This document shows positions 24,292 to 38,385 of a DNA stretch of 64,000 nt, piece after piece. Positions within the stretch are counted from its first letter, which is position 1. The number at the start of each line of letters is the position of its first letter. The DNA lies in NCBI GenBank assembly GCA_024401475.1, contig JAKSKZ010000011.1, positions 22,321-86,320 of the forward strand. Reading direction: 5' to 3'. The position numbers and the translations under genes are program-made. Below the pieces are notes generated by a model. That model saw only the letters and a list, made by a program, of their open reading frames with translations, made no database searches and was not told where the DNA came from. The stretch comes from Paludibacteraceae bacterium. Its GTDB lineage: Bacteria > Bacteroidota > Bacteroidia > Bacteroidales > Paludibacteraceae.

Positions 24292-24927
24292 ATGGCAACA
24301 TTCATATTGGCAGACAACCAAGACCTTACACGTTATGGTTTTGTATATATCATCGACCATTTCTTCCCCAATCACTCAATCGTGCGCACAGAAGACCGCA
24401 TCGAGTTGGAGGACGAGTTAAAGAAGGCGGACGAGTCCATCGTGTTGGTGGATCCGGAGCTGTTCGACATCGACACGCTGGAGGATTTGGAAGTTTTGGC
24501 CTCAAGATACATTCACTCTCAGTGGATACTCGTCAGCAACGATTTTGACGACACAACCATCCGTAATATGAGTGCTAGGCAAGAGGTGAGTATTCTCTTG
24601 AAAGAGAGCGGGAAGGAAGAGATCCGCAGTGCGATAAAGTGCGCCTTGAAACAGGACCGCTTTATCTGCCACCAGATTACCAACCGACTCCTCTCCATGC
24701 AAATCAGTTCTGACAGCGAATTGCTCACACCGACGGAGGTGGAGGTACTAAGACTGATTGCCCAAGGGAAGTCCGTGAAGGAGATCGCGTCCATCCGATT
24801 CTCCTCCTCCCACACCATCGTTTCGCACAAGAAGAACATATTCCGGAAAATCGGAGTGAACAGCGTGCATGAGGCAACCCGTTACGCATTGAAATCAGGA
24901 TTGGTTGATATAGACTACTATATCTAA
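24292..24927 (+). CDS. NarL/FixJ-type response regulator (REC + LuxR HTH)
   Basis: 211 residues. The receiver-like N-domain (1-118) has probable phospho-acceptor Asp54 in IVLVDPELF and the conserved Lys104 (LLKESG), but a degenerate acidic pocket (ADNQD in place of DD). The LuxR-type HTH spans about 144-206: LLTPTEVEVLRLIAQGKSVK, FSSSHTIVSHKKNIFRKIGV. No histidine kinase gene is in the island. Two cysteines (117, 126) lie in the linker helix and could be redox-sensitive, which is speculation. As the only regulator in the island, it is the natural candidate for binding the four TACCA-N6-TGGTA palindromes, one of which precedes its own operon. Confidence 0.9.
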   Translation: MATFILADNQDLTRYGFVYIIDHFFPNHSIVRTEDRIELEDELKKADESIVLVDPELFDIDTLEDLEVLASRYIHSQWILVSNDFDDTTIRNMSARQEVSILLKESGKEEIRSAIKCALKQDRFICHQITNRLLSMQISSDSELLTPTEVEVLRLIAQGKSVKEIASIRFSSSHTIVSHKKNIFRKIGVNSVHEATRYALKSGLVDIDYYI

Positions 24928-24947
24928 CCTACGCCTTTCGCATAGAC

Positions 24948-24979
24948 AACTCGCGGATCAACTGTTTCGCGAGTTTTTT
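24948..24979 (+). terminator. Terminator of the cysteine synthase/regulator operon
   Basis: Stem AACTCGCG / CGCGAGTT with a 12-nt loop, followed by TTTT, 21 nt after the regulator stop. Confidence 0.8.
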
Positions 24980-24981
24980 CT

Positions 24982-25461
24982 CTATAAATCCTTTATCATG
25001 TGAATCGTCGTCGCCGCATGGCCCGAATTGCCCAAACGATGAGGCAGATACCGAAACCCTTCCTTCTCATACAACGTGACGGCTTTCGAGAACTCAGGGA
25101 AGGATTCTATGTAGAGTTGTTTATATCCCTCCTCCCGCGCCTTCTCCTCCACACGGCGAAGTAATTGCTTGCCCAATCCTTTTCCACGCAGATTGGGGGA
25201 GAAATAGAATTTCACCACCTCGGCAATGCCCTCTTCCAATCCCTCTGTCGGGTAAAAGCCACAACCACCCAAAACGGTTCCGTTCTCTTCGACGACAAAG
25301 TATGCCGCATCGTCTCTTCCCGCAAAGGTTTCATACATCTGATCAGTCCTTGGGTCGTCATAAACCGTATATACTAACGGAGCGTCCAATTCCACAAAGG
25401 CATTTCTGACAATGACGGCAATCATCCCATTATCCTGGGGTTCTATATTTCGTATCTTCAT
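24982..25461 (-). CDS. GNAT-family N-acetyltransferase
   Basis: 159 residues with the GNAT core: N-terminal MKIRNIEPQDNGMIAVIVR, acetyl-CoA loop FYFSPNLRGKGLGKQLLRRV (R/Q-x-x-G-x-G/A form, about 88-107), and C-terminal ESFPEFSKAVTLYEKEGFRYLPHRLG. The substrate is unknown. It lies behind the terminator of the homocysteine operon, so it may be expressed separately, and I see no palindrome in front of it. Its link to sulfur metabolism rests only on location. Confidence 0.85.
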   Translation of the reverse strand: MKIRNIEPQDNGMIAVIVRNAFVELDAPLVYTVYDDPRTDQMYETFAGRDDAAYFVVEENGTVLGGCGFYPTEGLEEGIAEVVKFYFSPNLRGKGLGKQLLRRVEEKAREEGYKQLYIESFPEFSKAVTLYEKEGFRYLPHRLGNSGHAATTIHMIKDL

Positions 25462-25470
25462 GCTATGTAT

Positions 25471-25494
25471 AAAAAAAGACGCAGTTGCCTGCGC
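25471..25494 (-). terminator. Terminator of the carrier/homocysteine operon
   Basis: Read on the minus strand: stem GGCGCAG / CTGCGTC with loop GCAA, followed by seven T, just past the stop of the PLP enzyme. Confidence 0.8.
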
Positions 25495-25496
25495 CT

Positions 25497-26675
25497 TTAC
25501 TCTGCCTCTAAAGCCTGTTTGACATCTTCATATAGGTCATCTACATCTTCCAGTCCTATACTAAGTCGTATGGTAGTATCCTTCACATCCATCGCTCTTC
25601 GTTGAGAGCCTGAGAATGGTCCGAAAATGGTGGAAGCCGGATGGATGGCCAATGACTTATTATCGAACAGATTGGTCGCCCTTCGAATCAATTTCAGATG
25701 GTTGATGAAGTTAAAGCATGCCTGCTTATCCGCCAAATCAATGGTAATCATTCCTCCAGCGGTAGGGCCAAACTGCTTCAACGAAATCTCATGAAAAGGG
25801 TTGTCCTCCAAACCCGTATAATTCACATACGTGATCTGCGGCAATGATCGTAGCCGCTTCGCCAAATCCAAGGCATTTTGCGCCTGCACACGGTAACGTG
25901 CGTCCAGCGTCTCCAGTCCAATCGTCTGCATATAGGCAGCATGTGGGGTCATGATGGCACCCAAGTTACTGATCAGCTCATATCGGATCACGCGGTTCAC
26001 ATTGGGGAAGCGGCCATAGTCAATCACCAAACCTCCCAATGAAGTGGCTCCTCCGGATATGTACTTGGTACTGGAAACCACTTCGACATCCACACCCAAA
26101 TCCTTGGCACTGAACACCGTGAAAGGGATCATTGTCGTATCCGCAATAAGAGGGATATTATGCTCGTGGGCGATTTCAGACAAACCGTGTAGATCCGCCA
26201 CCTCCATCTGGGGATTGGTGATAATCTCTAGATAGATGCATGCTGTTTGCTCGTCCACCGAAGCCTTGACACGCTCCAAATCCAACAAATCGACACTTCT
26301 CGTCTCTAGTCCGAAACGCCCCAAGGTACCTTTCATCAAGGCCACCGTATTACCGAAAAGGTGGTTGGATGTAACCACATTTTTTCCTGCGGCAGTCACT
26401 GCCATCAGCGCATTGGTGATGGCAGCCATACCCGTATTGAAGGCAAAGACATTGGCTGCACAGGTCAATGCCTTCACCTTGTTTTCGAAATAGGTCACAG
26501 AGGGATTACCCAATCTGGAATAGTCGGGATCTTGCGTTCTGCCGCAAAAAGCGTCGGCCATGGCCTTGGCGTTAGGAAACTCATAGGCAGCCGTATGATA
26601 GACGGGAAAACCCAGAGCCCCGTAGGCATCCTCTCGTTGGAAGGATGTATGAATGGCTAAAGTTTGATTCTTCAT
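25497..26675 (-). CDS. Cys/Met-metabolism PLP enzyme, probable O-acetylhomoserine sulfhydrylase (MetY-like)
   Basis: 392 residues of the gamma-family of fold-type I PLP enzymes. YSRLGNPSV (52-60) and FNTGMAAI (79-86) bind cofactor phosphate, IADTTM (177-182) holds the pyridine-binding Asp, and Lys204 in SSTKYISGG is the Schiff-base lysine. The family covers cystathionine synthase/lyase and O-acyl-homoserine sulfhydrylase. Adjacency to a ThiS-like carrier, a MoeB-like enzyme and a JAMM peptidase (3-nt gap) fits the Wolinella-type pathway, where the protein thiocarboxylate donates sulfur to O-acetylhomoserine and yields homocysteine. Substrate choice is inferred from context. Confidence 0.85.
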   Translation of the reverse strand: MKNQTLAIHTSFQREDAYGALGFPVYHTAAYEFPNAKAMADAFCGRTQDPDYSRLGNPSVTYFENKVKALTCAANVFAFNTGMAAITNALMAVTAAGKNVVTSNHLFGNTVALMKGTLGRFGLETRSVDLLDLERVKASVDEQTACIYLEIITNPQMEVADLHGLSEIAHEHNIPLIADTTMIPFTVFSAKDLGVDVEVVSSTKYISGGATSLGGLVIDYGRFPNVNRVIRYELISNLGAIMTPHAAYMQTIGLETLDARYRVQAQNALDLAKRLRSLPQITYVNYTGLEDNPFHEISLKQFGPTAGGMITIDLADKQACFNFINHLKLIRRATNLFDNKSLAIHPASTIFGPFSGSQRRAMDVKDTTIRLSIGLEDVDDLYEDVKQALEAE

Positions 26676-26678
26676 CGA

Positions 26679-27077
26679 TTATCTCAAATTAATCCTCTCC
26701 ACAACTTCATTGTCCTTGATTCGGAACGCATTGAAAACCGGATACTTTCCGGCAAGCGACAAGATGGCGTAAAGCGCATTGGGGTCATAGGCCAATCGTT
26801 TGTCCTCCTCTGATGGACGGCTGGGAGATGCGGGGTGGCTATGCCAGTTACCCACTACCTTCAACCCATTTTTCTTCGCGTAATTGATCGCCGCGAACTG
26901 CTCTTTGGGATCAAAACTGAAATGCTCCTCGGAGTGGTCGATATTGGTCATCTTGTAGTTGAAAGAGACCGTCTCCTTGTCGGGACCCAAAAGGTAACCG
27001 CAGGATTCAACCGGAGCATCCTCCTGTGCCTGTCGCAGAATGGATTGATAAGCCTCTTCCGTTATTGTAAATGCCAT
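26679..27077 (-). CDS. JAMM/Mov34 zinc metallopeptidase acting on a sulfur carrier (HcyD/Mec+-like)
   Basis: 132 residues from the ATG at 27077 (MAFTITEEAYQSI), 7 nt after the upstream gene's stop; a longer frame adds 18 unrelated residues overlapping that gene. The JAMM motif is complete: Glu in PVESCGYLLG, then GNWHSHPASPSRPSEED, giving two His and an Asp for zinc. Bacterial relatives (Mec+ and HcyD) trim or release amino acids from ThiS-like carriers. Here the carrier ends GGG-QF, so this enzyme probably removes the terminal dipeptide to expose the glycine, or frees the product, or both. Confidence 0.9.
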   Translation of the reverse strand: MAFTITEEAYQSILRQAQEDAPVESCGYLLGPDKETVSFNYKMTNIDHSEEHFSFDPKEQFAAINYAKKNGLKVVGNWHSHPASPSRPSEEDKRLAYDPNALYAILSLAGKYPVFNAFRIKDNEVVERINLR

Positions 27078-27084
27078 AAGCGTA

Positions 27085-27900
27085 TTATTTTTTATGGGAA
27101 GCCAAATCGCAAGTGGCTTGTTCGTAGTCAATCAAACTGGTCACAGTCGGGTGTGAACCGCAAATAGGACATGCGCCTGTCTTCTTCACATTGAACTTGC
27201 GGAAGTTCATCGTCTTGGCGTCGAAGGTGAGCAATTTATTGGTCAACAGCTCGCCGACACCTGTGAAATACTTCAATGTCTCCGCAGCTTGGATGGTTCC
27301 TAGCATGCCTGCTATGGCACCCAGCACACCTGCCTGCGAACAAGTTGGAACAGCACCTGCGGGAGGTGGTGTCTTGAACATACAACGATAGCAAGCGGAA
27401 CCTGGCACATGGGTAAATGTTTGTCCCTCAAAACGAAGGATACCACCATGAGAGAAGGGTTTCCCCGCCATGACACACGCATCGTTAATCAAAAACTTCA
27501 CTGGGAAATTATCTGTACCATCCACCACGAAATCATACTCCTTAATGATGTCCAAAGCATTAGATGCCTCCAAAAACTCCTTGTAGGTCTTGACGTTTAC
27601 GTGAGGATTGATCGCTTGGATCGTCTCCTTGGCGGATTCAGCTTTCCAACGATCCACATCCGCTGTGGTGTGAATAATCTGGCGTTGCAAATTGCTCACA
27701 TCCACCACATCGCCATCCACGATTCCAATCGTTCCGATACCAGCCGCGGCAAGGTACATTCCCACAGGAGCGCCCAAACCACCGGCTCCAACGATCAACA
27801 CCTTTGCGTTACGGATCTTCTCCTGACCCTCCACACCCACATCCTGCAATAAGATGTGGCGTGAATATCTATTTAGCTCTTCTTCTGTAAAATCAAACAT
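27085..27900 (-). CDS. MoeB/ThiF-family adenylyltransferase (HcyF-like)
   Basis: 271 residues of E1-like enzyme. ATP-binding GAGGLGAPVG (38-47), acidic DGDVVDVSNLQRQ with the arginine finger, DGTDNFPVKFLIND, the Cys in AVPTCSQAG, and two CxxC zinc pairs (CYRC and CPIC). There is no rhodanese domain, so it resembles MoeB/ThiF rather than MoeZ. The family adenylates the C-terminal glycine of ThiS/MoaD-like carriers before sulfur loading. It lies 38 nt after the carrier gene and 7 nt before the JAMM gene. Confidence 0.93.
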   Translation of the reverse strand: MFDFTEEELNRYSRHILLQDVGVEGQEKIRNAKVLIVGAGGLGAPVGMYLAAAGIGTIGIVDGDVVDVSNLQRQIIHTTADVDRWKAESAKETIQAINPHVNVKTYKEFLEASNALDIIKEYDFVVDGTDNFPVKFLINDACVMAGKPFSHGGILRFEGQTFTHVPGSACYRCMFKTPPPAGAVPTCSQAGVLGAIAGMLGTIQAAETLKYFTGVGELLTNKLLTFDAKTMNFRKFNVKKTGACPICGSHPTVTSLIDYEQATCDLASHKK

Positions 27901-27901
27901 C

Positions 27902-27938
27902 TTAATTCACAATTCTTAATTCATAATTCTTAATTAAC
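27902..27938. repeat. AT-rich direct repeat between carrier and adenylyltransferase genes
   Basis: The spacer consists of near-repeats of AATTCTTAATTCATAATTC-type units, three imperfect copies of about 11-12 nt. I see no coding or hairpin role. Such strings may mark slipped-strand expansion. Confidence 0.5.
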
Positions 27939-28151
27939 TCAGAATTGTCCTCCGCCCATGAAATAAAGGAAATCCACCTCATCATTCTCCTTTAGTTCAG
28001 TAGTAGCGAAATAATCTCTGTCCAAGAACTCTTCGTTCACTTGTACGCTCACCATCTCGGGTTGCGCGATATTGTTCAACTGTATCAATCCTGAAACTGT
28101 CAATGGAAGGGTTACCTCCTGTTTCTCTCCGTTCACTATTATCTGTGCCAT
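27939..28151 (-). CDS. ThiS-like sulfur carrier protein with C-terminal extension (HcyS/CysO-like)
   Basis: 70 residues with a beta-grasp pattern: MAQIIVNGEKQEV, LPLTVSGLIQLN, VSVQVNEEFLDRDYF, ENDEVDFLYFMGGGQF. The C-terminus is GGG followed by Gln-Phe rather than ending at the diglycine, so it must be cleaved before adenylation and thiocarboxylation. The JAMM peptidase two genes downstream is suited to that. Known carriers of this kind are CysO (cysteine) and HcyS (homocysteine); the PLP partner in this operon points to HcyS. No other thiamine gene (thiG, thiE) is near, which argues against a role in thiamine synthesis. Confidence 0.9.
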   Translation of the reverse strand: MAQIIVNGEKQEVTLPLTVSGLIQLNNIAQPEMVSVQVNEEFLDRDYFATTELKENDEVDFLYFMGGGQF

Positions 28152-28198
28152 GTCTCTTTATTTTTTAGCTAAACATTACTTATTTTCTTTTGTCAATG

Positions 28199-28206
28199 CA
28201 AAGGTA
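28199..28206 (-). promoter_or_regulatory. Promoter -7 box of the carrier/homocysteine operon
   Basis: TACCTTTG on the minus strand, 48 nt upstream of the carrier ATG. There is no TTG at the -33 position. Instead the NarL-type half-site TACCTAT (minus strand, 28245-28239) is about 50 nt upstream of the start point, suggesting activator dependence. Confidence 0.6.
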
Positions 28207-28267
28207 AACACGCATATCCACAATAACCCACCAAACCAATAGGTAATTACATAAAGAAGTACATAAA

Positions 28268-28283
28268 TACCAAATGTATGGTA
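28268..28283. promoter_or_regulatory. Island operator 2 (upstream of the carrier operon)
   Basis: TACCAAATGTATGGTA is a perfect TACCA-N6-TGGTA palindrome, centred about 84 bp upstream of the predicted start point. Confidence 0.65.
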
Positions 28284-28355
28284 GGTGGACATCCCCATTT
28301 CAACACCAAATATGGGAGATAATCCACTTGTCAAAGTGGTACACAAAAGGGGAAG

Positions 28356-28377
28356 CACCTCGCCGAATAGGGAGGTG
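28356..28377 (-). terminator. Possible terminator of the encapsulin/desulfurase operon
   Basis: Hairpin CACCTC / GAGGTG with a 10-nt loop, 31 nt past the desulfurase stop. It is followed on the minus strand only by CTTCCCCTTTT, so termination is uncertain. Confidence 0.4.
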
Positions 28378-28407
28378 TTTTCCAAACTTGCAAAAAACGT
28401 AAAATTT

Positions 28408-30009
28408 CTATTTGTTGTTCGCTATGATCTTCTTCACAGCCACAACGAGTTTGTCGATTTCCTCTCTTGTGTTGTAGAAGGAGAAGGTAGGTCGCACACT
28501 CATCTCATAACCTAACGAACGAAGTGCAGGTTGGGCGCAGTGGTGACCAGCACGCACTGCGATACCCTCTTTGTCAAGCAACTGGCCAGTTTCGGGACCC
28601 CCCAACTTGTCAATCACAAAGGAGACCACGCTAACCCTATTCTTGGGATTTCCCAATACCGTTACACCAGGTATCTGCTGCAACTGCGTGCGGGCATACT
28701 CCGTCAGCCGATGCTCATACTTCTCAATCGCCTCAATGCCAACACGTTGCACATACTTCAAAGCGGCTCCCAAACCAATGGCATCCGCCACATTAGGGGT
28801 ACCCGCCTCAAAACGGGCAGGTGGTGCATTGAATTGCGTTTCCTCGATAGTAACATCCTTAATCATGTTTCCTCCGCCTTGCCATGGTGGCAATAGTTCC
28901 AACCATCTTTTCTTGCCATAGACAGCGCCAATTCCGTTCGGTCCATAAATCTTATGGCCAGAGAAGACGAAGAAATCGGCATCGAGTGCTTGCACGTCAA
29001 CCGGACTATGAGCGATGCTTTGAGCTCCATCGATCAAGACTGGCACATTGTAACGGTGGGCAATTTCTATGATCTGCTTCACGTCGTTGATGGTACCGAA
29101 GGTGTTATTGACATGTCCCACAGAAACGAATTTCGTATTGGGTCCAATCATACGGTCAAAATCGTCTAAAAGGAGGTCGCCATCTTTGCTCGCGGGAATG
29201 GCTTTGAGAATCGCGCCACGCTCCTTGCAGACTTGCTGCCAAGGAACAATATTCGCATGATGATCCAGCGTGGAGACAATTACCTCGTCTCCTGGATTCA
29301 AAAACTTTCTGCCGAATGTTTGCGCAATCAGGTTGATACCCTCCGTCGTTCCCCTCACGAAGACAATCTCTTCGGGACTTTGCGCATGAATGAAGTCCGC
29401 AATGGTCTGACGAGCCTCTTCGTATGCGTCCGTCGCCTCCGCCGCTAACGTATGGGCTCCTCTATGAATATTACTATTGTAATTTGTGTAATAGTCCGTA
29501 AGCGCATCTATCACCACCTGTGGTTTTTGCGTAGTAGCACCATTATCGAACCACACCAAATCCTTTCCATTCACCTTGCGTTTCAGGATAGGGAAATCCT
29601 TTCGGATGGCTTGGACATTTAACGTGTCATTATCCACATAATGGAGCGACTGAAGACTCTCTTTCTCTGGGCTACCGATACCAAATCCATCTTCGCTGAC
29701 CACACCCGTTTGGAAAGAAGAAGGGACTTGGAAATCCCCTCTTCCGTATGGGATGTTAGAACTTGCGAAATTAGGATTGGAGGAGAGTACAGGAACGCCT
29801 CCGTTAGGGAAACCATTGTCTCCGCGAAGAATTCTCATGAACCCCTCCTTGATATCCTCCAAGTTGAGTTGATCAACTTCGTCTGGAACAAATTGAGAGA
29901 CCTCTTGCTTAAGTTCCTCAGGACAAAAATTGCCAGCGGCTTGACGTAGGTACCCTATGTCACCGAGATTCGCACTGAAATTTGTATTATCTAAATCGGA
30001 AGTGATCAT
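28408..30009 (-). CDS. Encapsulin-associated cysteine desulfurase (SufS-like, extended N-terminus)
   Basis: 533 residues. Residues 133-533 are a SufS-type desulfurase: GTTEGINLIA, STLDHHANIVPW, the Schiff-base Lys353 in FSGHKIYGPNG, and active-site Cys491 in RAGHHCAQPALRS. It converts cysteine to alanine and enzyme-bound persulfide. Residues 1-132 are extra: a helical part (1-62), then a Gly/Ser/Asn/Pro-rich stretch (63-125, with IPYGRGDFQVPSSFQ) typical of a disordered tail. In family 2 encapsulin systems such an N-terminal domain directs the desulfurase into the shell. The encapsulin gene ends 9 nt upstream. Cargo loading is inferred from this match and from gene order. Confidence 0.92.
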   Translation of the reverse strand: MITSDLDNTNFSANLGDIGYLRQAAGNFCPEELKQEVSQFVPDEVDQLNLEDIKEGFMRILRGDNGFPNGGVPVLSSNPNFASSNIPYGRGDFQVPSSFQTGVVSEDGFGIGSPEKESLQSLHYVDNDTLNVQAIRKDFPILKRKVNGKDLVWFDNGATTQKPQVVIDALTDYYTNYNSNIHRGAHTLAAEATDAYEEARQTIADFIHAQSPEEIVFVRGTTEGINLIAQTFGRKFLNPGDEVIVSTLDHHANIVPWQQVCKERGAILKAIPASKDGDLLLDDFDRMIGPNTKFVSVGHVNNTFGTINDVKQIIEIAHRYNVPVLIDGAQSIAHSPVDVQALDADFFVFSGHKIYGPNGIGAVYGKKRWLELLPPWQGGGNMIKDVTIEETQFNAPPARFEAGTPNVADAIGLGAALKYVQRVGIEAIEKYEHRLTEYARTQLQQIPGVTVLGNPKNRVSVVSFVIDKLGGPETGQLLDKEGIAVRAGHHCAQPALRSLGYEMSVRPTFSFYNTREEIDKLVVAVKKIIANNK

Positions 30010-30018
30010 GATTCAATA

Positions 30019-31467
30019 TTATTTTTCTACTGTATTACGGTGTTGATAATCGTGATAGAATCCGACCTCAACATTGTCTAACACGGCAATAGCGTCGTCC
30101 GTAAGAGGAGCAAGGCTAAAGTATTTGGTCAAAAGGTAAGATGCCACACCAAAGTGGTCAAGACCCATCAAACGAGCGGATAGGGATGGAGAAATCTCGC
30201 CTGGAATACCAGTTTGATGAAGGCCAACCACACCTTGATTCTTTTCGCCCACACGCACAAGGATGAAGCTGGTGGTACCCACACCACTGTTAGTCAAATA
30301 TTGACCCTTCACCTCCACCTTATCGCTTGGGATGATTGGCACACCACGCCAAAGGATAATCTTTTGTCCATAAAGCTCTGTCGTGACAGGTGGCACACCA
30401 CGCCAAGTACATTCACGTTCAAAAGCCGCGATGGCACGAGGGTTGGCGATAAAGAAAGATGGTTCCTTCCAGACAAGAGACAAAAGTTCATCCAAATCGT
30501 CTGGCGTAGGAGATCCATAACGCGTGGTGATGCGATATGCCGGATTCACGCTTGCCAACAAGCCAAAATATTTATTGTTGATCAACTCCCACTCCTGACG
30601 CTCCTTGATACTCTCGATACTTAGTCGCAACTGTTCCTCCAATTGGTTGAAAGGATTGTTGTACAAGTCGCTGACACGAGTATGGACACGAACCACGGTT
30701 TGGAGCGTATTCAAGGAGTACTCCTTGGGTTTCTCCTCATAGTCGATATATGTTTCAGGGATGATATTATCCTCCTCATGTCCACTGACCAAATCGATGT
30801 GGCGCTCTCCATGCTCATTGAGGGTAGCCTTTAGTCTCAACTGCTTGTCAACGGCCTGTTGGAATTGGCTGCGGAAATCAGGGATGTCCTTGATGATGCT
30901 TCCCAACTCACTGCTTTTTAGAACGAGGAACACGGAAGGAGTCACCGCTCTGACGGTAACAGAAGCGAGGTTGTCGCTCAAAAGATCCGCCTCACCGAAA
31001 TACTCGCCGACACCGAGCAACGAGATACGAAGATCCTCACCATGAGGTCCCTTATGGCTCACCTCAGCCTGTCCATTGGCTACAATAAAGAATTTCTGCT
31101 CGTCATTTGCCTCCGTGATGAGTTCCGAGTTGATTCCCACCTCAACAGTTTCAAAAAGGCGGGCCAAACGTACCACAACCTCTTCATCGAAATGGGAGAA
31201 CAATGGAATTTGTTTGAGGCTCTCAGCCTTAAAGCTTGGGACACCATTGAAATATTCAATGGCGATGCGTCCGCCTCTCTTCAACTCCACCTTTGTACTG
31301 TTCACCCTGAATGTTCCGCTATCGACTTGTACCCATGGCAGCAATTTGAGCAAAAGACGAGGCGAAATCGCACCCATCTGAGGGTTGGTCTTGGTGGTGT
31401 TAGCCAAATTTCTGGCCGATGCAGTGGTCACACTGCGTTGTGCATTGTCCAAAATGTTTTCTGACAT
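30019..31467 (-). CDS. Family 2 encapsulin shell protein with inserted cyclic-nucleotide-binding-like domain (2B type)
   Basis: 482 residues from the ATG at 31467; a TTG two codons earlier is less likely. The ends match family 2 (SrpI-like) encapsulins of HK97 fold: ISPRLLLKLLPWVQVDSGTF and TRVSDLYNNPFNQLEEQLRL, then NPRAIAAFERECTWRGVPP and HQTGIPGEISPSLSARLMGL. Residues ~81-205 form a cNMP-binding-type insert (IPLFSHFDEEVV, FIVANGQAEV, GVGEYFGEADLL). The phosphate-cassette Arg is replaced: DNLASVTVRA where RxAxVxA is usual. The protein should assemble a compartment around the downstream desulfurase. Family 2A relatives with a desulfurase are linked to sulfur storage and starvation. Ligand binding by the insert is doubtful. 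Confidence 0.92.
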   Translation of the reverse strand: MSENILDNAQRSVTTASARNLANTTKTNPQMGAISPRLLLKLLPWVQVDSGTFRVNSTKVELKRGGRIAIEYFNGVPSFKAESLKQIPLFSHFDEEVVVRLARLFETVEVGINSELITEANDEQKFFIVANGQAEVSHKGPHGEDLRISLLGVGEYFGEADLLSDNLASVTVRAVTPSVFLVLKSSELGSIIKDIPDFRSQFQQAVDKQLRLKATLNEHGERHIDLVSGHEEDNIIPETYIDYEEKPKEYSLNTLQTVVRVHTRVSDLYNNPFNQLEEQLRLSIESIKERQEWELINNKYFGLLASVNPAYRITTRYGSPTPDDLDELLSLVWKEPSFFIANPRAIAAFERECTWRGVPPVTTELYGQKIILWRGVPIIPSDKVEVKGQYLTNSGVGTTSFILVRVGEKNQGVVGLHQTGIPGEISPSLSARLMGLDHFGVASYLLTKYFSLAPLTDDAIAVLDNVEVGFYHDYQHRNTVEK

Positions 31468-31484
31468 AATCAAATATTTTTAGT

Positions 31485-31706
31485 TTATTTTTTAATTGTT
31501 ACTTTATGAGTGGTGCCTTCCACATGCTCAATCGACAGCACTTCAAACCCCTGTTCTGTCGCACTTCTTGGCACATTATTAAGCGGTTCTCCTTCGCTGA
31601 GAAGAACTTCAAGAATCTCGCCCTTCTGTAATTTAGCCAACTCCAACTTCGTTTTCACAAAGGTCATTGGGCAATGTTCTTTTGTAATATCAAGTGTATG
31701 ATTCAT
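31485..31706 (-). CDS. TusA/SirA-family sulfur carrier
   Basis: 73 residues. Cys12 lies in KEHCPMTFVKTKLELAKL, the TusA active-site pattern with CPMT in place of CPxP, followed by GEILEVLLSEGEPLNNVPRS and a final strand. TusA proteins receive persulfide sulfur from a desulfurase and pass it on. It lies 18 nt after the DsrE gene and 17 nt before the encapsulin gene, so it probably relays sulfur to or from the encapsulated desulfurase. Confidence 0.9.
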   Translation of the reverse strand: MNHTLDITKEHCPMTFVKTKLELAKLQKGEILEVLLSEGEPLNNVPRSATEQGFEVLSIEHVEGTTHKVTIKK

Positions 31707-31724
31707 ATTTTGAGTACTAATTTG

Positions 31725-32222
31725 TTAAATGAATAATGTCTGTCCGCCTTTGCTGATGTCCAAGAAGGTTGAGACGCCAAGGACATCCTTTAATTCATGA
31801 ATAAAGTCACCCTTCTGCAGTCCGAGAATGTGCATGGCCATTTCACAAGCATAAATGTTGACATTCAAGGCGATGGCCGCATCCACGAGTTCCTCCAAAG
31901 TCGCCACGTTATTCTTTTTCATCAAGTAGCGAAAAATTTTAGGGCCGATACCAAAGAAGTTGAAACGGCTATTAGGTGCCTTGGAAATGCCACCCATCAT
32001 GAAACCGAAGATTTTAGTGAGCCAATTACCTCCAATGAAGCTACGTCCCTTCTTCTGTTTGATGGCATCAAGGCCCCAAAACGTGAAGAAGATGTTCACC
32101 TCGTAACCGACAGCGGCAGCACCTGTAGCAAGTGTGAAAACAGCTGTCAACTTGTCGAAATCGCCGCTAAAAGCGATCAACGACAATTTTTTCTGATTGT
32201 CCAAAGAATTTATTTCCGCCAT
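31725..32222 (-). CDS. DsrE/DsrF/DrsH-like peroxiredoxin-fold sulfur-relay protein
   Basis: 165 residues. KKLSLIAFSGDFDKLTAVFT and AAAVGYEVNIFFTFWGLDAI form the DsrE core, FGFMMGG lies at about 72-78, and Cys126 is in NIYACEMAMHILGL. Members bind sulfur as persulfide on this cysteine and exchange it with TusA-type carriers. It is the second gene of the encapsulin operon, 21 nt after the cysteine synthase gene. DsrE-TusA pairing next to a desulfurase is a known sulfur-trafficking arrangement. Confidence 0.88.
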   Translation of the reverse strand: MAEINSLDNQKKLSLIAFSGDFDKLTAVFTLATGAAAVGYEVNIFFTFWGLDAIKQKKGRSFIGGNWLTKIFGFMMGGISKAPNSRFNFFGIGPKIFRYLMKKNNVATLEELVDAAIALNVNIYACEMAMHILGLQKGDFIHELKDVLGVSTFLDISKGGQTLFI

Positions 32223-32243
32223 ATAATCGAATTTTATTATTTA

Positions 32244-33170
32244 CTAATTAAATATTCCAGTAGATAGGTAACGTTCTCCCGTATCAGGGAAGATGGCCAC
32301 AATCAGTTTTCCTTCGTTCTCAGGTCTATTGGCCAATTGTATGGCTGAACAAAGCGCCGCACCACTGGAAACACCAGCCAAGATTCCCTCCTTTTTAGCC
32401 AAGAGGCGAGTATAATGGATCGCCTGTTCGTTTTTCACCTTCACAATTTCGTCAATCACCGATAAATCAAGGATTTTAGGAATAAATCCAGCTCCAATTC
32501 CCTGTATGGAATGTGGTCCCGCAGATTCACCGGACAAGACGGCCGAGCCAAAAGGTTCCACGGCGACCACCTGCAACTTCTTTCTCTTTTTCAGTTCCCT
32601 TCCGATACCTGTGATGGTACCGCCGGTTCCGACCCCGGCCACTAGTACATCAATTTTACCATCCGTATCCTCCCATATTTCCTTTGCCGTGGAGACTTGA
32701 TGAATCGCACTATTCGCATAATTGGTGAATTGTTGCGGAATGAAGGTATCTCCGATAGACATGGACAACTCCTTCGCCTTCTCAATAGCACCTCCCATAC
32801 CCTCATGGGCAGGTGTAAGACATATCTTCGCACCCAAAGCCTTTAACATGGAACGACGCTCCACGCTCATACTATCTGGCATTGTCAAAATAAGATTATA
32901 CCCCTTTACGGCAGCGGCTATCGCTAATCCAATACCTGTATTCCCGCTTGTAGGCTCTATGATGGTCGTACTCTTGTTCAGCAATCCCCTGCGTTCCGCA
33001 TCCTCTATAAGTGCGAATCCTACACGATCCTTGACGCTTCTGCCTGGGTTCAGAAATTCCAGTTTGGCCACGACCTTCGCCTTCAGACCCAACTCCTGCT
33101 CCAAGTTGGTCAACTCCAACAAAGGGGTATTCCCCACAAGATCAATCACACTATTCGCTATTTTTGCCAT
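32244..33170 (-). CDS. cysK: Cysteine synthase (O-acetylserine sulfhydrylase), second island copy
   Basis: 308 residues. Lys47 in NPGRSVKDRVGFALI forms the PLP Schiff base; TSGNTGIGLA and GVGTGGTITGIG bind substrate and phosphate; EIWEDTDG is typical of CysK, and SSGAALCSA and IFPDTGERYLSTGIF close it. The partner serine O-acetyltransferase is the next gene upstream. It opens the encapsulin operon, so cysteine made here could feed the desulfurase cargo, or sulfide leaving the compartment could be recaptured. The region before it has its own promoter and operator 3. Confidence 0.93.
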   Translation of the reverse strand: MAKIANSVIDLVGNTPLLELTNLEQELGLKAKVVAKLEFLNPGRSVKDRVGFALIEDAERRGLLNKSTTIIEPTSGNTGIGLAIAAAVKGYNLILTMPDSMSVERRSMLKALGAKICLTPAHEGMGGAIEKAKELSMSIGDTFIPQQFTNYANSAIHQVSTAKEIWEDTDGKIDVLVAGVGTGGTITGIGRELKKRKKLQVVAVEPFGSAVLSGESAGPHSIQGIGAGFIPKILDLSVIDEIVKVKNEQAIHYTRLLAKKEGILAGVSSGAALCSAIQLANRPENEGKLIVAIFPDTGERYLSTGIFN

Positions 33171-33195
33171 ATATATTCTCCCGTTTATTTACATA

Positions 33196-33226
33196 CAAAA
33201 TTAGACCTTGCGGGAACCTAATTCAA
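33196..33226 (-). promoter_or_regulatory. Promoter of the encapsulin operon
   Basis: TAATTTTG on the minus strand at 33203-33196, with TTG (33226-33224) 20 nt upstream. It lies 26 nt upstream of the cysteine synthase start. Confidence 0.6.
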
Positions 33227-33258
33227 TAGCGTTTGTGTGGCATTTTACGAAATGGTTG

Positions 33259-33274
33259 TACCACAATAATGGTA
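33259..33274. promoter_or_regulatory. Island operator 3 (upstream of the encapsulin operon)
   Basis: TACCACAATAATGGTA is TACCA-N6-TGGTA, centred about 78 bp upstream of the predicted start point of the cysK-dsrE-tusA-encapsulin-desulfurase operon. Confidence 0.65.
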
Positions 33275-33368
33275 GGTGTATCAAACAAAAAAGGGGTCAG
33301 CCACAAATGGGCCTTTCCCCTTCAAAGACATGGTAACTTGAGATTCTTTTCTCTTTGTAGAATAGTTA

Positions 33369-34253
33369 TTAAATACCAGCACCATCACTGAATGTAGTAG
33401 CGATGGCCTTTTGCTGCAACACTTTAGAATAGGGAGAAACACTATTCGTCAACCAAACATTACCTCCAACAATGGTGTGATGACCTATTGTAATTCGACC
33501 TAAGATAGATGTGTTCGAATAAATGGTGACATGATCTTCTATGATAGGATGACGAGGTGTGTTCAACGGAACGCCATTATCATCAAAGGAGAAACTTTTG
33601 GCACCCAACGTAACGCCCTGATATAACGTCACATGATCCCCTATAATACAAGTTTCGCCAATCACCACACCCGTACCATGGTCAATAGAGAAATATTCTC
33701 CAATCTGCGCACCAGGATGTATATCAATGCCAGTTTTAGAATGAGCCATTTCAGTGATGATGCGAGGCAAGACAGGCACTCCCAACTTATGAAGCGCATG
33801 AGCTATCCGATAATGAATCATCACCTGCATGATCGGATAGCAAAAAATGATTTCGCTATAAGAAGTAACCGCAGGATCGGAATGAAACATAGCATCCACA
33901 TCCGTATAGAGCACCCTTTTTATTTCAGGAAGTTCACAAAGAAATTTTGCGGAAAGTTCGTCAATGTCATCCTCCAACATCTCAGTCTTCTTAAACGCCG
34001 AAAAACTCAAAAAAATCTGCTTTCTTAACAGATCATAAAGCTGATCCATACAGACGCCTATATAGTAACATCTGTTCTCATAGTTAATCTCGTCCGACGT
34101 AAAGTATTCGGGAAAAATCACCTGTTTAGAGAGTTCCACCATCTTCTGTACCATCTCTATTGCAGGAAGATTCCTAGTTCCCAACCGACTCTCAACATCT
34201 GACACTGCGGATAATTTCGACACATTTTCGGCTATTACCTGACTTCTATTCAT
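33369..34253 (-). CDS. Serine O-acetyltransferase (EpsC/CysE type)
   Basis: 294 residues. A helical N-terminal part of about 160 residues is followed by left-handed beta-helix hexapeptide repeats: GIDIHPGAQIGEYFSIDHGT, GVVIGETCIIGDHVTLYQGV, TLGAKSF, TPRHPIIEDHVTIYSNTSIL and GRITIGHHTIVGGNVWL. The catalytic-type His pair (IDHGT and RHP) is present. It makes O-acetylserine for cysteine synthase. It starts 9 nt after the thioredoxin stop. Serine acetyltransferases also occur in other encapsulin-desulfurase operons, which supports joint function. Confidence 0.93.
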   Translation of the reverse strand: MNRSQVIAENVSKLSAVSDVESRLGTRNLPAIEMVQKMVELSKQVIFPEYFTSDEINYENRCYYIGVCMDQLYDLLRKQIFLSFSAFKKTEMLEDDIDELSAKFLCELPEIKRVLYTDVDAMFHSDPAVTSYSEIIFCYPIMQVMIHYRIAHALHKLGVPVLPRIITEMAHSKTGIDIHPGAQIGEYFSIDHGTGVVIGETCIIGDHVTLYQGVTLGAKSFSFDDNGVPLNTPRHPIIEDHVTIYSNTSILGRITIGHHTIVGGNVWLTNSVSPYSKVLQQKAIATTFSDGAGI

Positions 34254-34262
34254 ATAAAACCT

Positions 34263-34577
34263 TTACTTATATAGCTCTATCAACTCCTTAATTTTCGCTT
34301 TAGTGACATCACCAAGCAACTTATCGATTACAGTTCCATTCTTCACAAAATAGATGGCAGGAATATTTCGGATGCCATATTGCGCCACCATTTTTTCCTC
34401 TTCATCCACATTGTACTTTCCAATGTTGACACTCTCTCCGTATTCCTCGAACAAAGTCTCTATAACCGGAGTTAATCTTTTACAATGAGCACACCATGAT
34501 GCCCAGAAATCTATAACCACCAATTTATCTTGTGAAAAATAAGTTTCTATATTACCGTCTGAAAATTTTAAAGCCAT
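34263..34577 (-). CDS. Thioredoxin-like protein with CAHC active site
   Basis: 104 residues with the classic thioredoxin layout: VVIDFWASWCAHCKRLTPVI (active Cys29 and Cys32), YNVDEEEKMVAQYGIRNIPAIYFVKNG with the cis-Pro, and a C-terminal helix. The active site reads CAHC where thioredoxin has CGPC; a His before the second Cys recalls DsbA-like sites (CPHC) and usually makes the disulfide more oxidising. It has no signal peptide. It is the first gene of the trx-cysE transcript, so it may reduce persulfides from the desulfurase or carriers. Confidence 0.9.
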   Translation of the reverse strand: MALKFSDGNIETYFSQDKLVVIDFWASWCAHCKRLTPVIETLFEEYGESVNIGKYNVDEEEKMVAQYGIRNIPAIYFVKNGTVIDKLLGDVTKAKIKELIELYK

Positions 34578-34621
34578 AGTACTTTACTAATTAGATAATT
34601 TCTATTTTTCTTTTGACAGCA

Positions 34622-34667
34622 CAAAAATAAGAAGCCACCCAATATCTACCTATCAATTCAATAGGTA
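34622..34667 (-). promoter_or_regulatory. Promoter region of the thioredoxin-serine acetyltransferase operon
   Basis: TATTTTTG on the minus strand (34629-34622) is the -7 box, with no TTG at -33. At 34647-34667 an inverted pair TACCTAT-N7-ATAGGTA lies about -42. TACCTAT fits the NarL heptamer consensus TACYYMT, so the promoter looks activator-dependent. Confidence 0.55.
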
Positions 34668-34690
34668 AATATCGTGTCACAACACAGAAA

Positions 34691-34706
34691 TACCATATCT
34701 ATGGTA
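34691..34706. promoter_or_regulatory. Island operator 4 (upstream of thioredoxin)
   Basis: TACCATATCTATGGTA is TACCA-N6-TGGTA, centred about 84 bp upstream of the predicted start point, the same offset as operator 2. Confidence 0.65.
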
Positions 34707-34760
34707 GTCCACATACATTATGATACATTTTGTATGGGATAATTTTTCACACAAACCGAC

Positions 34761-34835
34761 TTGTATCAGAATCCTAGTTTTACTACATTTGCAATTACTC
34801 AGGATGCGGTAAAAAATGGGGGCAAGGTTGCCCCC
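34761..34835 (+). promoter_or_regulatory. Possible promoter and GC-rich hairpin near the right island end
   Basis: TTG at 34761-34763 and TACATTTG at 34784-34791 (20-nt spacer) form a good plus-strand promoter. A GC-rich palindrome, GGGGGCAA-GG-TTGCCCCC, lies at 34818-34835, about 20 nt past the likely start point. No credible reading frame follows. A small RNA or a recombination-site structure are both possible. The rest of 34707-34948 shows only short TGACA/TGTCA repeats. Confidence 0.35.
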
Positions 34836-34948
34836 TCTCATGATAGTCCGTGGGTTTTCTTGACATTTCATGACACTTCGTTTCTTGAAATATACCTAAT
34901 AACCAAGTATTTAAAATTCATAAAATGTCATAAAAAGTCAAAAAACAC

Positions 34949-35013
34949 TCCTCGTGAGACAACAATCCACAAGGCTAATCAACTATGTTGGTTGGCCTTT
35001 TTTCTTTTTCCCA
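34949..35013 (+). other. Right attachment repeat and displaced tRNA-Gln tail
   Basis: 34949-34966 repeats the 18-bp tRNA end exactly. The rest, up to CTTTTTCCCA at 35013, is the same sequence as follows the intact second tRNA-Gln, including its terminator hairpin. This is the original 3' end and tail of the first tRNA-Gln, now separated from it by the island. Confidence 0.85.
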
Positions 35014-35057
35014 GACATAAAAAGCATAACATTTTTTCAAGTCTATCGTCAGAACTA

Positions 35058-35088
35058 TTGCAAGATTAAAAAAGTGTTCTTACCTTTG
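35058..35088 (+). promoter_or_regulatory. Promoter of the second tRNA-Gln (TTGC-N19-TACCTTTG)
   Basis: TTGC at 35058-35061, a 19-nt spacer, and TACCTTTG at 35081-35088; the 5' leader before the tRNA is nearly identical to that of the first copy. Confidence 0.72.
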
Positions 35089-35120
35089 CACCGCCTTTGA
35101 AAAACAAGGCAACTGAGGAT

Positions 35121-35191
35121 TGTCTCATGGTGTAATGGTAGCACTACAGTTTTTGGTTCTGTCTGTCGAGGTTCGAATCCCCGTGAGACAA
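35121..35191 (+). tRNA. tRNA-Gln (TTG anticodon), second copy
   Basis: Same as the first copy apart from one base in the T-arm: CGAGG-TTCGAAT-CCCCG, which gives an A-C mismatch at 51-63 where the first copy pairs A-T. All other stems and the TTG anticodon are intact. The displaced tail at 34949 keeps the normal CCTCG, so the mismatch is specific to this copy. Confidence 0.93.
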
Positions 35192-35199
35192 CAATCCAC

Positions 35200-35232
35200 A
35201 AGGCTAATCAACTATGTTGGTTGGCCTTTTTT
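35200..35232 (+). terminator. Terminator of the second tRNA-Gln
   Basis: AAGGCTAATCAAC pairs with GTTGGTTGGCCTT through G-T wobbles and a short loop, followed by a T-rich run. An identical copy lies in the displaced tail at about 34971-35003. Confidence 0.75.
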
Positions 35233-35248
35233 CTTTTTCCCATAGCAC

Positions 35249-35286
35249 AAAAAAGTAGGAATCGCCCGATACGGCAATCCCTACTT
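35249..35286 (-). terminator. Terminator of the small basic-protein gene
   Basis: Read on the minus strand: stem AAGTAGG / CCTACTT extended by ATTGCC-type pairing, then six T. It overlaps the stop codon of the small gene. Confidence 0.65.
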
Positions 35287-35433
35287 CTGAACTCGCTTGT
35301 TCAATTGATTGTTAGCCTTCTCCGGCTTAGACTTCCCTATTCGTTTGCCAGAGGTTTTAGGTTTACCTGCAGGTTTGAAACGAAAAGGATTTTTAGGATT
35401 TCCACCCACCGATTTCTTTCGTGTACTTCTCAT
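35281..35433 (-). CDS. Small, very basic protein (50 residues)
   Basis: ATG at 35433 to TAG at 35281 encodes 50 residues starting MRSTRKKSVGGNPKNPFRFK, with 16 Lys/Arg and no acidic residue except one Glu. A consensus promoter lies 20 nt upstream and a terminator at the stop, so the gene is well framed by signals despite its size. The composition suggests an RNA- or ribosome-associated protein, but I do not recognise the family. It sits between the second tRNA-Gln and metH and points away from metH. Confidence 0.6.
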   Translation of the reverse strand: MRSTRKKSVGGNPKNPFRFKPAGKPKTSGKRIGKSKPEKANNQLNKRVQK

Positions 35434-35452
35434 ACCTTAATTTCTTTTGCCA

Positions 35453-35483
35453 CAAAGGTAAATATTTGAAGAAACAAATCCAA
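35453..35483 (-). promoter_or_regulatory. Promoter of the small basic-protein gene
   Basis: TTG at 35483-35481, a 20-nt spacer and TACCTTTG at 35460-35453 on the minus strand; the predicted leader is about 12 nt. Confidence 0.65.
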
Positions 35484-35568
35484 GAACTCACTAAAGGGCT
35501 CCCTCGACCCTATCCATGCCAATCCCTTAGATTTCTTTCCAAAGAAAGTTTCTTTCCTTATTTTTTAA

Positions 35569-35576
35569 TACCTTTG
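35569..35576 (+). promoter_or_regulatory. metH promoter -7 box
   Basis: TACCTTTG on the plus strand, 28 nt upstream of the metH ATG. No clear -33 element is present. No B12-riboswitch-like structure is evident in the short upstream region. Confidence 0.6.
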
Positions 35577-35604
35577 TAAACAATTAAAAGAGAGATTCAA
35601 TAGT

Positions 35605-38379
35605 ATGAAATACGATTTAAAAGAAGAGTTATCTCACAGAACGTTAATCCTTGATGGAGGTATGGGTACAATGGTACAAAAATACCATTTGACAGAAGAA
35701 GATTATAGGGGCAAAGAATTTGCAGACTCGCCATTAATCCAAAAAGGAAACAACGACCTACTTTGCTTGACTCAACCCAACGTCATACGAGAAATTCACG
35801 AGAAATATCTCCAAGCAGGAGCCGACATCATCGAAACCTGCTCGTTCAACTCTCAACGCATATCCATGTCCGACTACGGCATGGAAAATCAGATCAGACG
35901 ATTCAACACAGAAGCAGCCAAGATTGCACGTTCGATAGCGGATGAATACACGAAAAAAGATCCATCCAGACCTCGATTCGTAGCTGGTTCCGTCGGGCCA
36001 ACTAACAAAACAGCTTCCATTTCTCCAGATGTGAACAACCCCGCACTAAGAGGCATCACATTTTCCGAACTTGTAGATGCCTACAAAGAACAGATGGAGG
36101 CTCTTATCGAAGGAGGCGTGGACGCTTTGCTCATCGAAACCATTTTCGACACGCTCAATGCCAAAGCTGCCATCTTTGCAGCAGAAGAGGCTATGTTGGA
36201 AGTGGGTCGGAAAGTATATATAATGCTATCCGCTACAGTAGCCGACATCAGCGGCCGTACTCTATCGGGGCAAACCATCAAAGCATTCTTGAATTCTGTC
36301 GCTCACGCAGACATCCTCTCCGTCGGTCTCAACTGCTCTTTCGGAGCGAAGGATTTGAAACCCTATTTGAAAGAAATCAGCGACTGCGCACCTTGGTATG
36401 TCAGTGCATACCCCAACGCAGGTCTCCCTAATCAATTTGGAGAATACGACGAGACCCCTGAAATGATGGGCGTTCAAGTTAAAGATTATATAGACGAGAA
36501 TTTGGTCAACATCATCGGCGGTTGCTGCGGAACCACCCCCGACCACATTGCCCAATACGCGAAACTCATAGAGAACGCTACTACCCGCGAGCCGAAAAAG
36601 AGGAATCGCAACATGAAGCTCTCCGGGTTGGAAGATCTTACGATTACTTCTCGAGACAACGAGAATCCCAAACCATCGCCTCGTTCTCTTTTCGTCAACA
36701 TTGGAGAACGATGCAATGTGGCAGGTTCAAAGAAATTCTTACGCCTAATCAGCGAGAAGAAATACGACGAAGCGCTCTCTATCGCCAGACAGCAGGTGGA
36801 AGACGGCGCCCAAATTATCGATGTCAATATGGATGACGCCATGCTCGATGCGAAGCAAGAGATGGTCACATTCCTCAACCTCATCGCTTCCGAGCCCGAA
36901 ATTGCAAAATTGCCAATCATGATAGACTCTTCCAAATGGGAGGTCATCGAAGCTGGCTTGCAGTGCGTACAAGGAAAGTGCATCGTAAACTCTATCTCCT
37001 TGAAGGAAGGCGAAGCGAAATTTTTAGAGAAGGCTCGACTCATCAAACGATACGGGGCTGCCACTGTAGTGATGGCTTTCGATGAAAAAGGACAAGCCGA
37101 CTCTTACGAGCGAAAAATAGAAATTTGTGGCAGGGCCTATCGCCTTTTAGTGGAGACGGTCGGATTCCCTCCTGAAGATATAATCTTCGACCCTAACGTA
37201 TTGGCAGTTGCAACCGGTATTGAAGAACACAATAACTACGGCGTAGATTTCATCCGTGCCACTAAATGGATCAGCGAAAATTTGCCATGTGCAAAGATCA
37301 GCGGCGGCGTCAGCAACTTGTCCTTCTCCTTCAGAGGAAACAATCCAATCAGAGAAGCCATGCACTCCGTATTCCTCTATCATGCCTACAAGGTAGGCAT
37401 GGATATGGGTATCGTAAACGCCGGTATGCTTCAAATTTACGAAGACATTCCTGCCGACCTTCTTGTAAAAGTGGAGGACGTAGTGCTTAACCGACGCCCT
37501 GACGCAACAGAGATACTCATCGAAGCGGCCGAAGAGATCAAGAAGCAACAAGCGGGCAACGACAAACAAAGTCATACCGAAGAGTGGCGTACGAAATCAT
37601 TGGAAGAGAGAATCGAATATTGTCTAATCAAAGGTATCGGAGACCACCTCGAAGAAGATTTGGCTGAAGCTCGTGAGATTTACAAAAACCCTGTGGAAAT
37701 CATAGAGAAACCTTTGATGAACGGAATGAATAAAGTCGGGGAACTATTCGGCGCCGGAAAAATGTTCCTTCCTCAAGTGGTAAAAACGGCCAGAACCATG
37801 AAAAAGGCTGTAGCCATACTACAACCATTCATCGAGGCTCAAAGGGATGGCAAAAATCAAAAGGCAGGAAAAATCCTTATCGCCACCGTTAAAGGCGACG
37901 TCCATGACATCGGAAAAAATATCGTAGCCGTCATCTTAGCTTGCAACAATTTCGAGGTGATTGACCTTGGTGTCATGGTTCCTTCTGAACAAATCATACA
38001 AACTGCCATCAAGGAGAATGTCGATATCGTCTGCCTCAGCGGACTCATCACCCCTTCGCTGGAGGAGATGTGCCATGTGGCAAGCGAAATGCAACAAAAT
38101 GGCTTGTCTATTCCTTTGATGATCGGAGGAGCTACAACCTCCCCTATTCACACCGCAGTAAAAATTGCTCCTCTATACGATGCTCCCGTCATGCACATGA
38201 AGGATGCATCCCAAAACACTTACGCAGCCAGTCAAATCCTCAACCCTAAGACAAGAGATGAATACGCTCGCAAGATCAGGGAAGAGCAACAGGCTCTACG
38301 GGCAGTACAAAAGAAGAAAGAAGAAGATATCCTCTCCGTCAATGAAGCACGAGAGAAGAAACCTGATTTTTTCAATTAA
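35605..38379 (+). CDS. metH: Cobalamin-dependent methionine synthase (without activation domain)
   Basis: 924 residues. The homocysteine-binding barrel (1-~325) has zinc cysteines 244 (LNCSFGA), 307 and 308 ([11 protein letters not shown]). The methyl-THF domain starts near 350 ([20 protein letters not shown]). The cap and B12 domain (~660-900) carries [10 protein letters not shown] with axial His767, then [12 protein letters not shown] and [15 protein letters not shown]. The ~330-residue AdoMet-binding reactivation domain of E. coli MetH (1227 residues) is absent: the protein ends in a charged helix. Reactivation must use another protein or another way. It would methylate homocysteine made by the adjacent island pathway. 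Confidence 0.95.
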
Positions 38380-38385
38380 TGTAAG

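Follow-up and report, generated by a model that had tools for sequence, protein, structure and literature searches.

A 14-gene sulfur island in a Paludibacteraceae bacterium encodes a family 2B encapsulin shell and its likely cargo, a cysteine desulfurase, together with the sulfur carriers DsrE2 and TusA and with ThiS, ThiF, JAMM and MetY proteins, which by their families are parts of a protein-thiocarboxylate route to homocysteine. The recurrence of this gene set in 25 loci exceeds chance, and we give roughly even odds (about 0.5) to the reading that the compartment takes cysteine sulfur while TusA and DsrE2 pass sulfur to the ubiquitin-like carrier for homocysteine synthesis. The island lies in a window of 64,000 nt (the whole stretch of DNA analysed: assembly GCA_024401475.1, contig JAKSKZ010000011.1, positions 22,321 to 86,320 of the forward strand) from a 3.6-Mb genome, and coordinates of genes and sites count from the first letter of this window. 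The analysis is computational, with genes, families and co-location read from sequence.

A first-pass annotation of this DNA had described an encapsulin operon of five genes that might store or buffer sulfur, cysK1-DsrE2-TusA-shell-desulfurase, spaced 9–21 nt apart within an island bounded by tRNAs. The minus-strand open reading frames confirm the five genes, with gaps of 21, 18, 11 (17 from the probable shell ATG) and 9 nt, and tRNA-Gln genes do stand at both sides. The end that had been set at the desulfurase did not hold: the same-strand sulfur gene set runs from 34577 to 24982, with thioredoxin (Trx) and serine O-acetyltransferase (SAT) genes before the five and, across a gap of 256 nt between desulfurase and ThiS, with ThiS, ThiF, JAMM, MetY and GNAT genes after them. 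With the ThiS-ThiF-JAMM-MetY module present, storage need not be the sole role, and the compartment may store sulfur or supply it to a protein-thiocarboxylate pathway.

The shell gene (30019–31473, minus strand) matches the family 2B encapsulin model NF041163 over residues 14–471 with 541.8 bits against a cut-off of 400, which upholds the 2B layout first assigned to it. Its reading frame opens with TTG at 31473, and an in-frame ATG at 31467 is the likelier start. The product combines an SrpI-like domain (PF19307, 369 bits, residues 214–471) with a cyclic nucleotide (cNMP)-binding-like insert (PF00027, residues 117–195), and by sequence score its solved relatives are the 2B shells 9bje (371 bits) and 9bhu (336 bits) and the 2A shell SrpI, 6x8m (335 bits), a strong indication of homology to solved HK97 shells. 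An AlphaFold2 model built from 28 close sequences reached a mean pLDDT of 47, with confidence confined to the insert, and a Foldseek search with this poor model returned a 2B shell as top match (E 7e-21, TM 0.26); since the prediction is poor outside the insert, the HK97 fold of the shell rests on homology. The phosphate-binding arginine of the cNMP cassette is absent (by eye) in all 28 aligned shells from its canonical place. In line with this, cyclic nucleotides are reported not to be bound by the 2B insert (PMC12407261).

Directly downstream lies a SufS-type cysteine desulfurase (28408–30009, minus strand; TIGR01979, 550 bits, cut-off 475). Its SufS domain begins near residue 130, leaving the extra N-terminal region that the first-pass annotation had noted, an extension of about 127 residues in which structure prediction gives short helices followed by a low-confidence linker (70–127). 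The encapsulin 2A cargo model NF041166 scores 705.7 bits, under its cut-off of 800, and covers the catalytic part only; because of this score we do not file the enzyme as 2A cargo. The motifs SGHK and GHHC, which we take to be the pyridoxal phosphate lysine and active-site cysteine sites, are kept in 22 of 22 aligned desulfurases. A targeting-motif pattern matches 10 of the 22; it was written after viewing the sequences and serves as a lead only.

Upstream of the shell are TusA (31485–31706, minus strand; PF01206, 77.6 bits; motif CPMTFVKTK) and a DsrE2-like carrier with a conserved cysteine (31725–32222, minus strand; PF13686, 128 bits; DsrE2 model NF047629, 67 bits, below its cut-off of 210). 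CEMAM, the motif holding that cysteine, occurs in 35 of 35 DsrE2 homologues (two duplicate contigs included), and CPMTFV in all 26 TusA rows listed. The earlier proposal that these are sulfur carriers belonging to the system is supported. Elsewhere, the pair keeps to the shell when the carrier module lies apart from it (L028, L034 and L042), and to the carrier module or its JAMM gene when no shell was found (L057–L059, L061–L064 and L066). TusA and DsrE2 may thus be the connector between the shell-desulfurase and the carrier. They are probably not a general trait of 2B-desulfurase systems, because neither was in view at the four loci opened (L044–L047, L044 being cut by a contig end) in another Bacteroidota family, f35, which accounts for 54 of 61 genomes matching the shell. 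At these four loci the 2B shell and desulfurase are accompanied by SAT or cysK.

The ThiS-like ubiquitin-fold carrier (27939–28151, minus strand; TIGR01683, 59 bits, cut-off 37) ends in FMGGG-QF, so that its C-terminus is masked. Among 35 carriers (the window and 34 other loci, one tail read by hand), all have 1–14 variable residues after FMGGG, exactly two in 28, with 20 different tails. Adjoining the carrier in the window are a ThiF/MoeB-type E1 without a rhodanese domain (27085–27900, minus strand; PF00899, 280 bits, the sole domain in 271 aa) and an intact JAMM peptidase (26679–27131, minus strand; PF14464, 86 bits; likely start an internal ATG near 27077), whose motif is intact in all 39 loci with a JAMM gene. 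A second ThiS of the genome, just before a thiamine synthase gene, ends in a bare GG. The module closes with a MetY-type O-acetylhomoserine sulfhydrylase (25497–26675, minus strand), whose best solved relative by sequence score is 3ri6 at 339 bits, the next scoring 238 bits; we take 3ri6 to be the Wolinella MetY enzyme. A structure paper on Wolinella MetY appears in the reference list of PMC6271081. An island-type MetY was found somewhere in the genome in 11 of 12 shell genomes searched, and the G006 copy has an interrupted frame: it is broken by a stop (G006:C10:55695-56912) about 14 kb from the shell, and the adjacent carrier module is missing.

The shell occurs in 18 of 250 genomes drawn from the family. 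Our comparison set of 25 loci consisted of the window, the other 17 shell genomes of the 250, and seven further contigs titled Prevotella, Prevotellaceae or Bacteroidales, which were assigned by title and not by GTDB family. Left out of the count were L002 and L003 (judged by length to be the same contigs as L042 and L028) and L011–L015 (other phyla), and two small genes were recovered by hand. At all 25 loci the desulfurase directly follows the shell, and DsrE2 and TusA lie upstream of the shell on the same strand. The idea that DsrE2/TusA always touch the shell was rejected, TusA being directly beside it in 14 of the 25. ThiS, ThiF and JAMM are encoded no more than about 10 kb from the shell at 21 of 25 loci, or 21 of the 24 where this stretch is visible; the four without a nearby module are L038 (the contig ends after the desulfurase), L034 (the module is on another contig, L070), and L028 and L042 (JAMM elsewhere, with no ThiS next to it). 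Three gene orders hold the same gene set, and parts of it form touching co-directional runs, from MetY to SAT in L007 and L009 and from MetY to JAMM in L008.

Among the 250 genomes, a JAMM match is present in 17 of 18 with the shell vs 16 of 232 others (one of the 16 weak). ThiS-ThiF-JAMM stood at the fetched locus in 15 of 18 shell genomes vs 15 of 232 shell-less ones (p 2e-13, or 6e-14 without two shell-less genomes, G448 and G611, seen in part at contig ends), p-values that are overstated because the genomes are related and not independent. By genus, 9 of 9 genera with the shell are among the JAMM genera vs 2–3 of the other 24.

Two loci from other phyla show different combinations. In L014 (9959–16706), which is acidobacterial, a family 2A encapsulin and desulfurase stand opposite a set of ThiS, E1-rhodanese, JAMM and cysteine synthase genes; this may be an encapsulin-carrier pairing that arose independently, and it was seen in one locus only. 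A Planctomycetota contig (L011, 8483–13133) carries two tandem 2B shell genes and a desulfurase, that is, a two-shell desulfurase system.

The shell-less genomes with the module are mainly of two kinds, one with a ThiS-ThiF-DsrE2-TusA-JAMM cluster and no shell or desulfurase in view at the locus, the other with a sulfite reductase-TusA fusion. Of 19 sulfite reductases checked in the family, 13 (in 13 genomes) carry a C-terminal TusA, recognized by Pfam in nine (L055, L065 and L079–L085) and by motif in four (L077, L078, L092 and L094); five lack the TusA motif (L086, L087, L090, L091 and L095) and one is cut (L093, gene end missing). The fusions at L055 (17599–19899) and L065 (7482–9893) neighbour siroheme genes and a PAPS reductase with a CysN-like GTPase, respectively, and the TusA domain of one fusion is 44% identical to the island TusA. 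The fusion occurs in 12 of 33 JAMM genomes vs 1 of 217 others, and its bearers are 10 relatives in which no shell was detected and three that have one. A genome search found no sulfite reductase in the island's own genome, and none is present in 15 of the 18 shell genomes. Within the JAMM genomes, the fusion is found in 3 of 17 that have the shell vs 9 of 16 that lack it (p 0.025, one further partial gene left unjudged). A strict swap of sources, shell or sulfite reductase and never both, was rejected, since three genomes carry both. The encapsulated desulfurase may therefore be an alternative, not exclusive, sulfur source for the carrier.

In the scheme that we propose, the N-terminal extension would anchor the desulfurase within the shell, as happens in family 2A. 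The enzyme would convert cysteine, supplied by SAT and cysK, to alanine and a persulfide that either stays on the enzyme or is stored within the shell, and TusA and DsrE2 would pick up the sulfane sulfur, either at the shell or through it. JAMM would trim the ThiS tail to a free Gly-Gly, the rhodanese-less ThiF would adenylate it, and TusA would give the sulfur for a thiocarboxylate, which MetY may then combine with O-acetylhomoserine, JAMM freeing homocysteine. Methylation of the homocysteine could fall to the cobalamin-type methionine synthase encoded next door (35605–38379), past the right tRNA-Gln. The net effect would be a cysteine-to-methionine trans-sulfuration without free sulfide in which the shell acts as a buffer, and the weakest link would be transfer out of the shell. 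A fuller version of this scheme, which we advance tentatively and would place a little short of even, is that the encapsulin is a sulfur battery discharging via TusA/DsrE2 onto a trimmed, E1-activated ThiS-like carrier to make homocysteine, with sulfur protein-bound throughout and no free sulfide, and that the shell-desulfurase in this lineage replaces the sulfite reductase-TusA fusion which feeds the same carrier in relatives.

Several observations weigh against this scheme. Co-location shows neither the passage of sulfur from shell to carrier nor its direction, and the structure model of the shell is poor, as the mean pLDDT above indicates. JAMM, or JAMM and SAT, stand between TusA and the shell at 11 of 25 loci, and MetY is at the locus in only 16 of 25. 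Two ordinary O-acetylhomoserine sulfhydrylases are encoded in the genome as well, so the thiocarboxylate route would not be its only homocysteine route. Shell and carrier module can be parted, since in two shell genomes (G006 and G490) JAMM lies only at a distance from the shell, with no ThiS adjoining it. As to the sulfur source, three shell genomes (G004, G441 and G478) also have the sulfite reductase-TusA fusion, two of the contigs counted as shell-less (L059 and L066, from genomes 88 and 55% complete) end where a shell could follow, and the contrast between shell and fusion might be explicable by phylogeny alone.

Sulfur could also flow inward, a reading we consider unlikely. TusA and DsrE2 would then deliver sulfane sulfur of other origin to the carrier, for making cysteine or homocysteine, the encapsulated desulfurase would only drain surplus cysteine to storage, and the two halves would share regulation and cysteine with no protein relay. 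This would fit the cysteine-making genes, SAT at 13 and cysK at 19 of the 25 loci, as well as the embedding of DsrE2-TusA in the carrier module at the 11 loci with JAMM between TusA and shell. Sulfur storage is moreover the published role of desulfurase encapsulins (PMC12407261). Since no desulfurase adjoins the shell-less ThiS-ThiF-DsrE2-TusA-JAMM clusters (L057–L059, L061, L063 and L066), TusA/DsrE2 can serve the carrier from another source. Set against inward flow is the constant placement of DsrE2-TusA before the shell-desulfurase, on the same strand, at 25 of 25 loci, also at the three whose carrier module is elsewhere.

The regulation and history of the island bear on a further alternative. 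An operator-like palindrome, CTACCATNNNNNTGGTA, stands on the minus strand upstream of Trx (34691–34707), between SAT and cysK1 (33259–33275), between the desulfurase and ThiS (28268–28284) and upstream of cysK2 (23196–23212), each copy preceding a presumed transcription unit of the island. It was first spotted by eye in three gaps, and a search added the fourth place, before cysK2. At no more than one mismatch there are 6 readings of the 4 places, with 0.18 expected and at most 2 in 100 shuffles; the perfect sites in the 3.6-Mb genome are these four only, and a reversed control gave none. In the three minus-strand gaps the palindrome is followed, by eye, by TAnnTTTG, presumably a Bacteroidetes-type -7 box. 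A dyad scan for a shared operator in related loci yielded nothing beyond low-complexity or scattered repeats, the palindrome in shortened form occurs in 2 of 70 loci, sigma-70-type promoters were no more frequent than in shuffles (22 observed vs 22.6), and an Rfam scan of 20000–40000 found nothing beyond two tRNAs.

The cassette cysK1-DsrE2-TusA-shell-desulfurase is 79–97% identical to that of another genus (L028 and L042) and 65–83% identical to that of two genomes of its own genus (L030 and L031); the cassette was probably exchanged. ThiS, ThiF and JAMM are 76–85% identical to those of the same-genus L030 and L031 and are missing at the L028 and L042 loci. The parts thus probably joined by exchange, together with the four palindromes before four units, would fit an island that is simply a sulfur-limitation regulon of independent sulfur genes, with compartment and carrier not physically coupled. 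We think this improbable, because the same parts have been rejoined in three orders, some of them touching and co-directional, which goes beyond the needs of regulation. That the carrier serves some other acceptor (thiamine, molybdenum cofactor, tRNA or a siderophore), supplied by the desulfurase, is very unlikely: ThiS/JAB pairs do serve siderophore pathways too (PMC1779556), but this genome keeps a separate bare-GG ThiS beside its thiamine genes elsewhere, and the 14 island genes include MetY, cysK and SAT but none for ThiG, MoaE or a siderophore.

The minus-strand set opens with thioredoxin (34263–34577; PF00085, 91.7 bits), followed by SAT, which is cysE/epsC-like (33369–34253; TIGR01172, 156 bits, below the cut-off of 210.65; EpsC model, 145.6 of 150), and the cysteine synthase cysK1 (32244–33170; TIGR01139, 429.5 bits, cut-off 351), and it ends with a GNAT acetyltransferase (24982–25461; PF00583, 72 bits). 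On the opposite (plus) strand are a LuxR/GerE-type protein, a candidate regulator of the island (24292–24927; PF00196, 59.6 bits), and a second cysK-like gene, cysK2 (23288–24256; PF00291, 253 bits). The 12-kb block is bounded by two plus-strand tRNA-Gln (TTG) genes, at 22999–23070 on the left and 35121–35192 on the right, within a 138-nt repeat (93%) at both flanks (22936–23073 and 35058–35195). The right side of the island is closed by a further 18 nt of tRNA 3' end sequence at 34949–34966 (within 34949–35013), in the manner of an element that has integrated at a tRNA. The island's genes include no integrase, and tRNA-Gln was found in none of 21 related loci scanned.

The carrier half of the island resembles a methionine pathway of Wolinella made up of a ubiquitin-like carrier, E1, JAMM and MetY; these parts match the island, whose MetY is closest to 3ri6. 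We know of no encapsulin or desulfurase in the Wolinella pathway. In that pathway a protein thiocarboxylate replaces sulfide (PMC6225789, PMC6271081, PMC5764234); the first two of these papers cite Krishnamoorthy and Begley 2011 for it. A similar gene set is type 4e of Iyer et al. 2006 (PMC1779556), which like the island comprises a ThiS/MoaD-like protein, a JAB peptidase, a rhodanese-less E1, SirA (=TusA), proposed there as a rhodanese substitute, and O-acetylhomoserine sulfhydrylase. Type 4e genes go with sulfate/sulfite reduction genes, whereas the island's genome is without sulfite reductase and has the desulfurase, shell and DsrE2 instead.

On the compartment side, SrpI-CyD of Synechococcus, a 2A system induced by sulfur starvation, likewise has a desulfurase loaded by a mostly disordered N-terminal domain (PMC8049743). 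It differs from the island in that SrpI has no cNMP insert and in that its two targeting motifs are not clearly present in the island desulfurase, where LRQAAGNFCPEE is vaguely like the SrpI-CyD motif LARLANEFFS, a likeness noted post hoc. The first-pass annotation had suggested that a 2B-like shell with desulfurase, DsrE and TusA in a Bacteroidales-type host was undescribed. For the pairing of a 2B shell with a desulfurase this is not supported: Andreas and Giessen 2021 (PMC8346489) count 199 family 2B operons that carry a cysteine desulfurase, spread over 9 phyla, and place serine O-acetyltransferase with the most enriched accessories. Like the island, these operons have a 2B shell with a cNMP-like insert, a desulfurase with a disordered N-terminal region and SAT nearby. 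The accessories named in the main text are SAT and rhodanese; within the available text the word TusA is absent and no carrier/E1/JAMM module appears, whereas the island has both. A full-text literature search, most subscription papers and supplements lying outside it, found no encapsulin joined with TusA, thiocarboxylate or a sulfur carrier; it returned only papers of unrelated title for encapsulin with DsrE or with Prevotella, and nothing for sulfite reductase, TusA, fusion and thiocarboxylate together.

Relative to the known 2B-desulfurase operons, what is new, within the literature searchable, is the co-location with DsrE2/TusA and with ThiS-ThiF-JAMM-MetY. The locus names candidate acceptors (TusA and DsrE2) and a product (carrier thiocarboxylate, then homocysteine) that are encoded together, and its relatives provide natural controls, some having the same carrier alongside a sulfite reductase-TusA fusion and others having DsrE2/TusA but no shell that could be detected. 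If the proposed transfer of sulfur from compartment to carrier is true, this would be, within the same literature, the first joining of encapsulins to ubiquitin-like sulfur-carrier systems.

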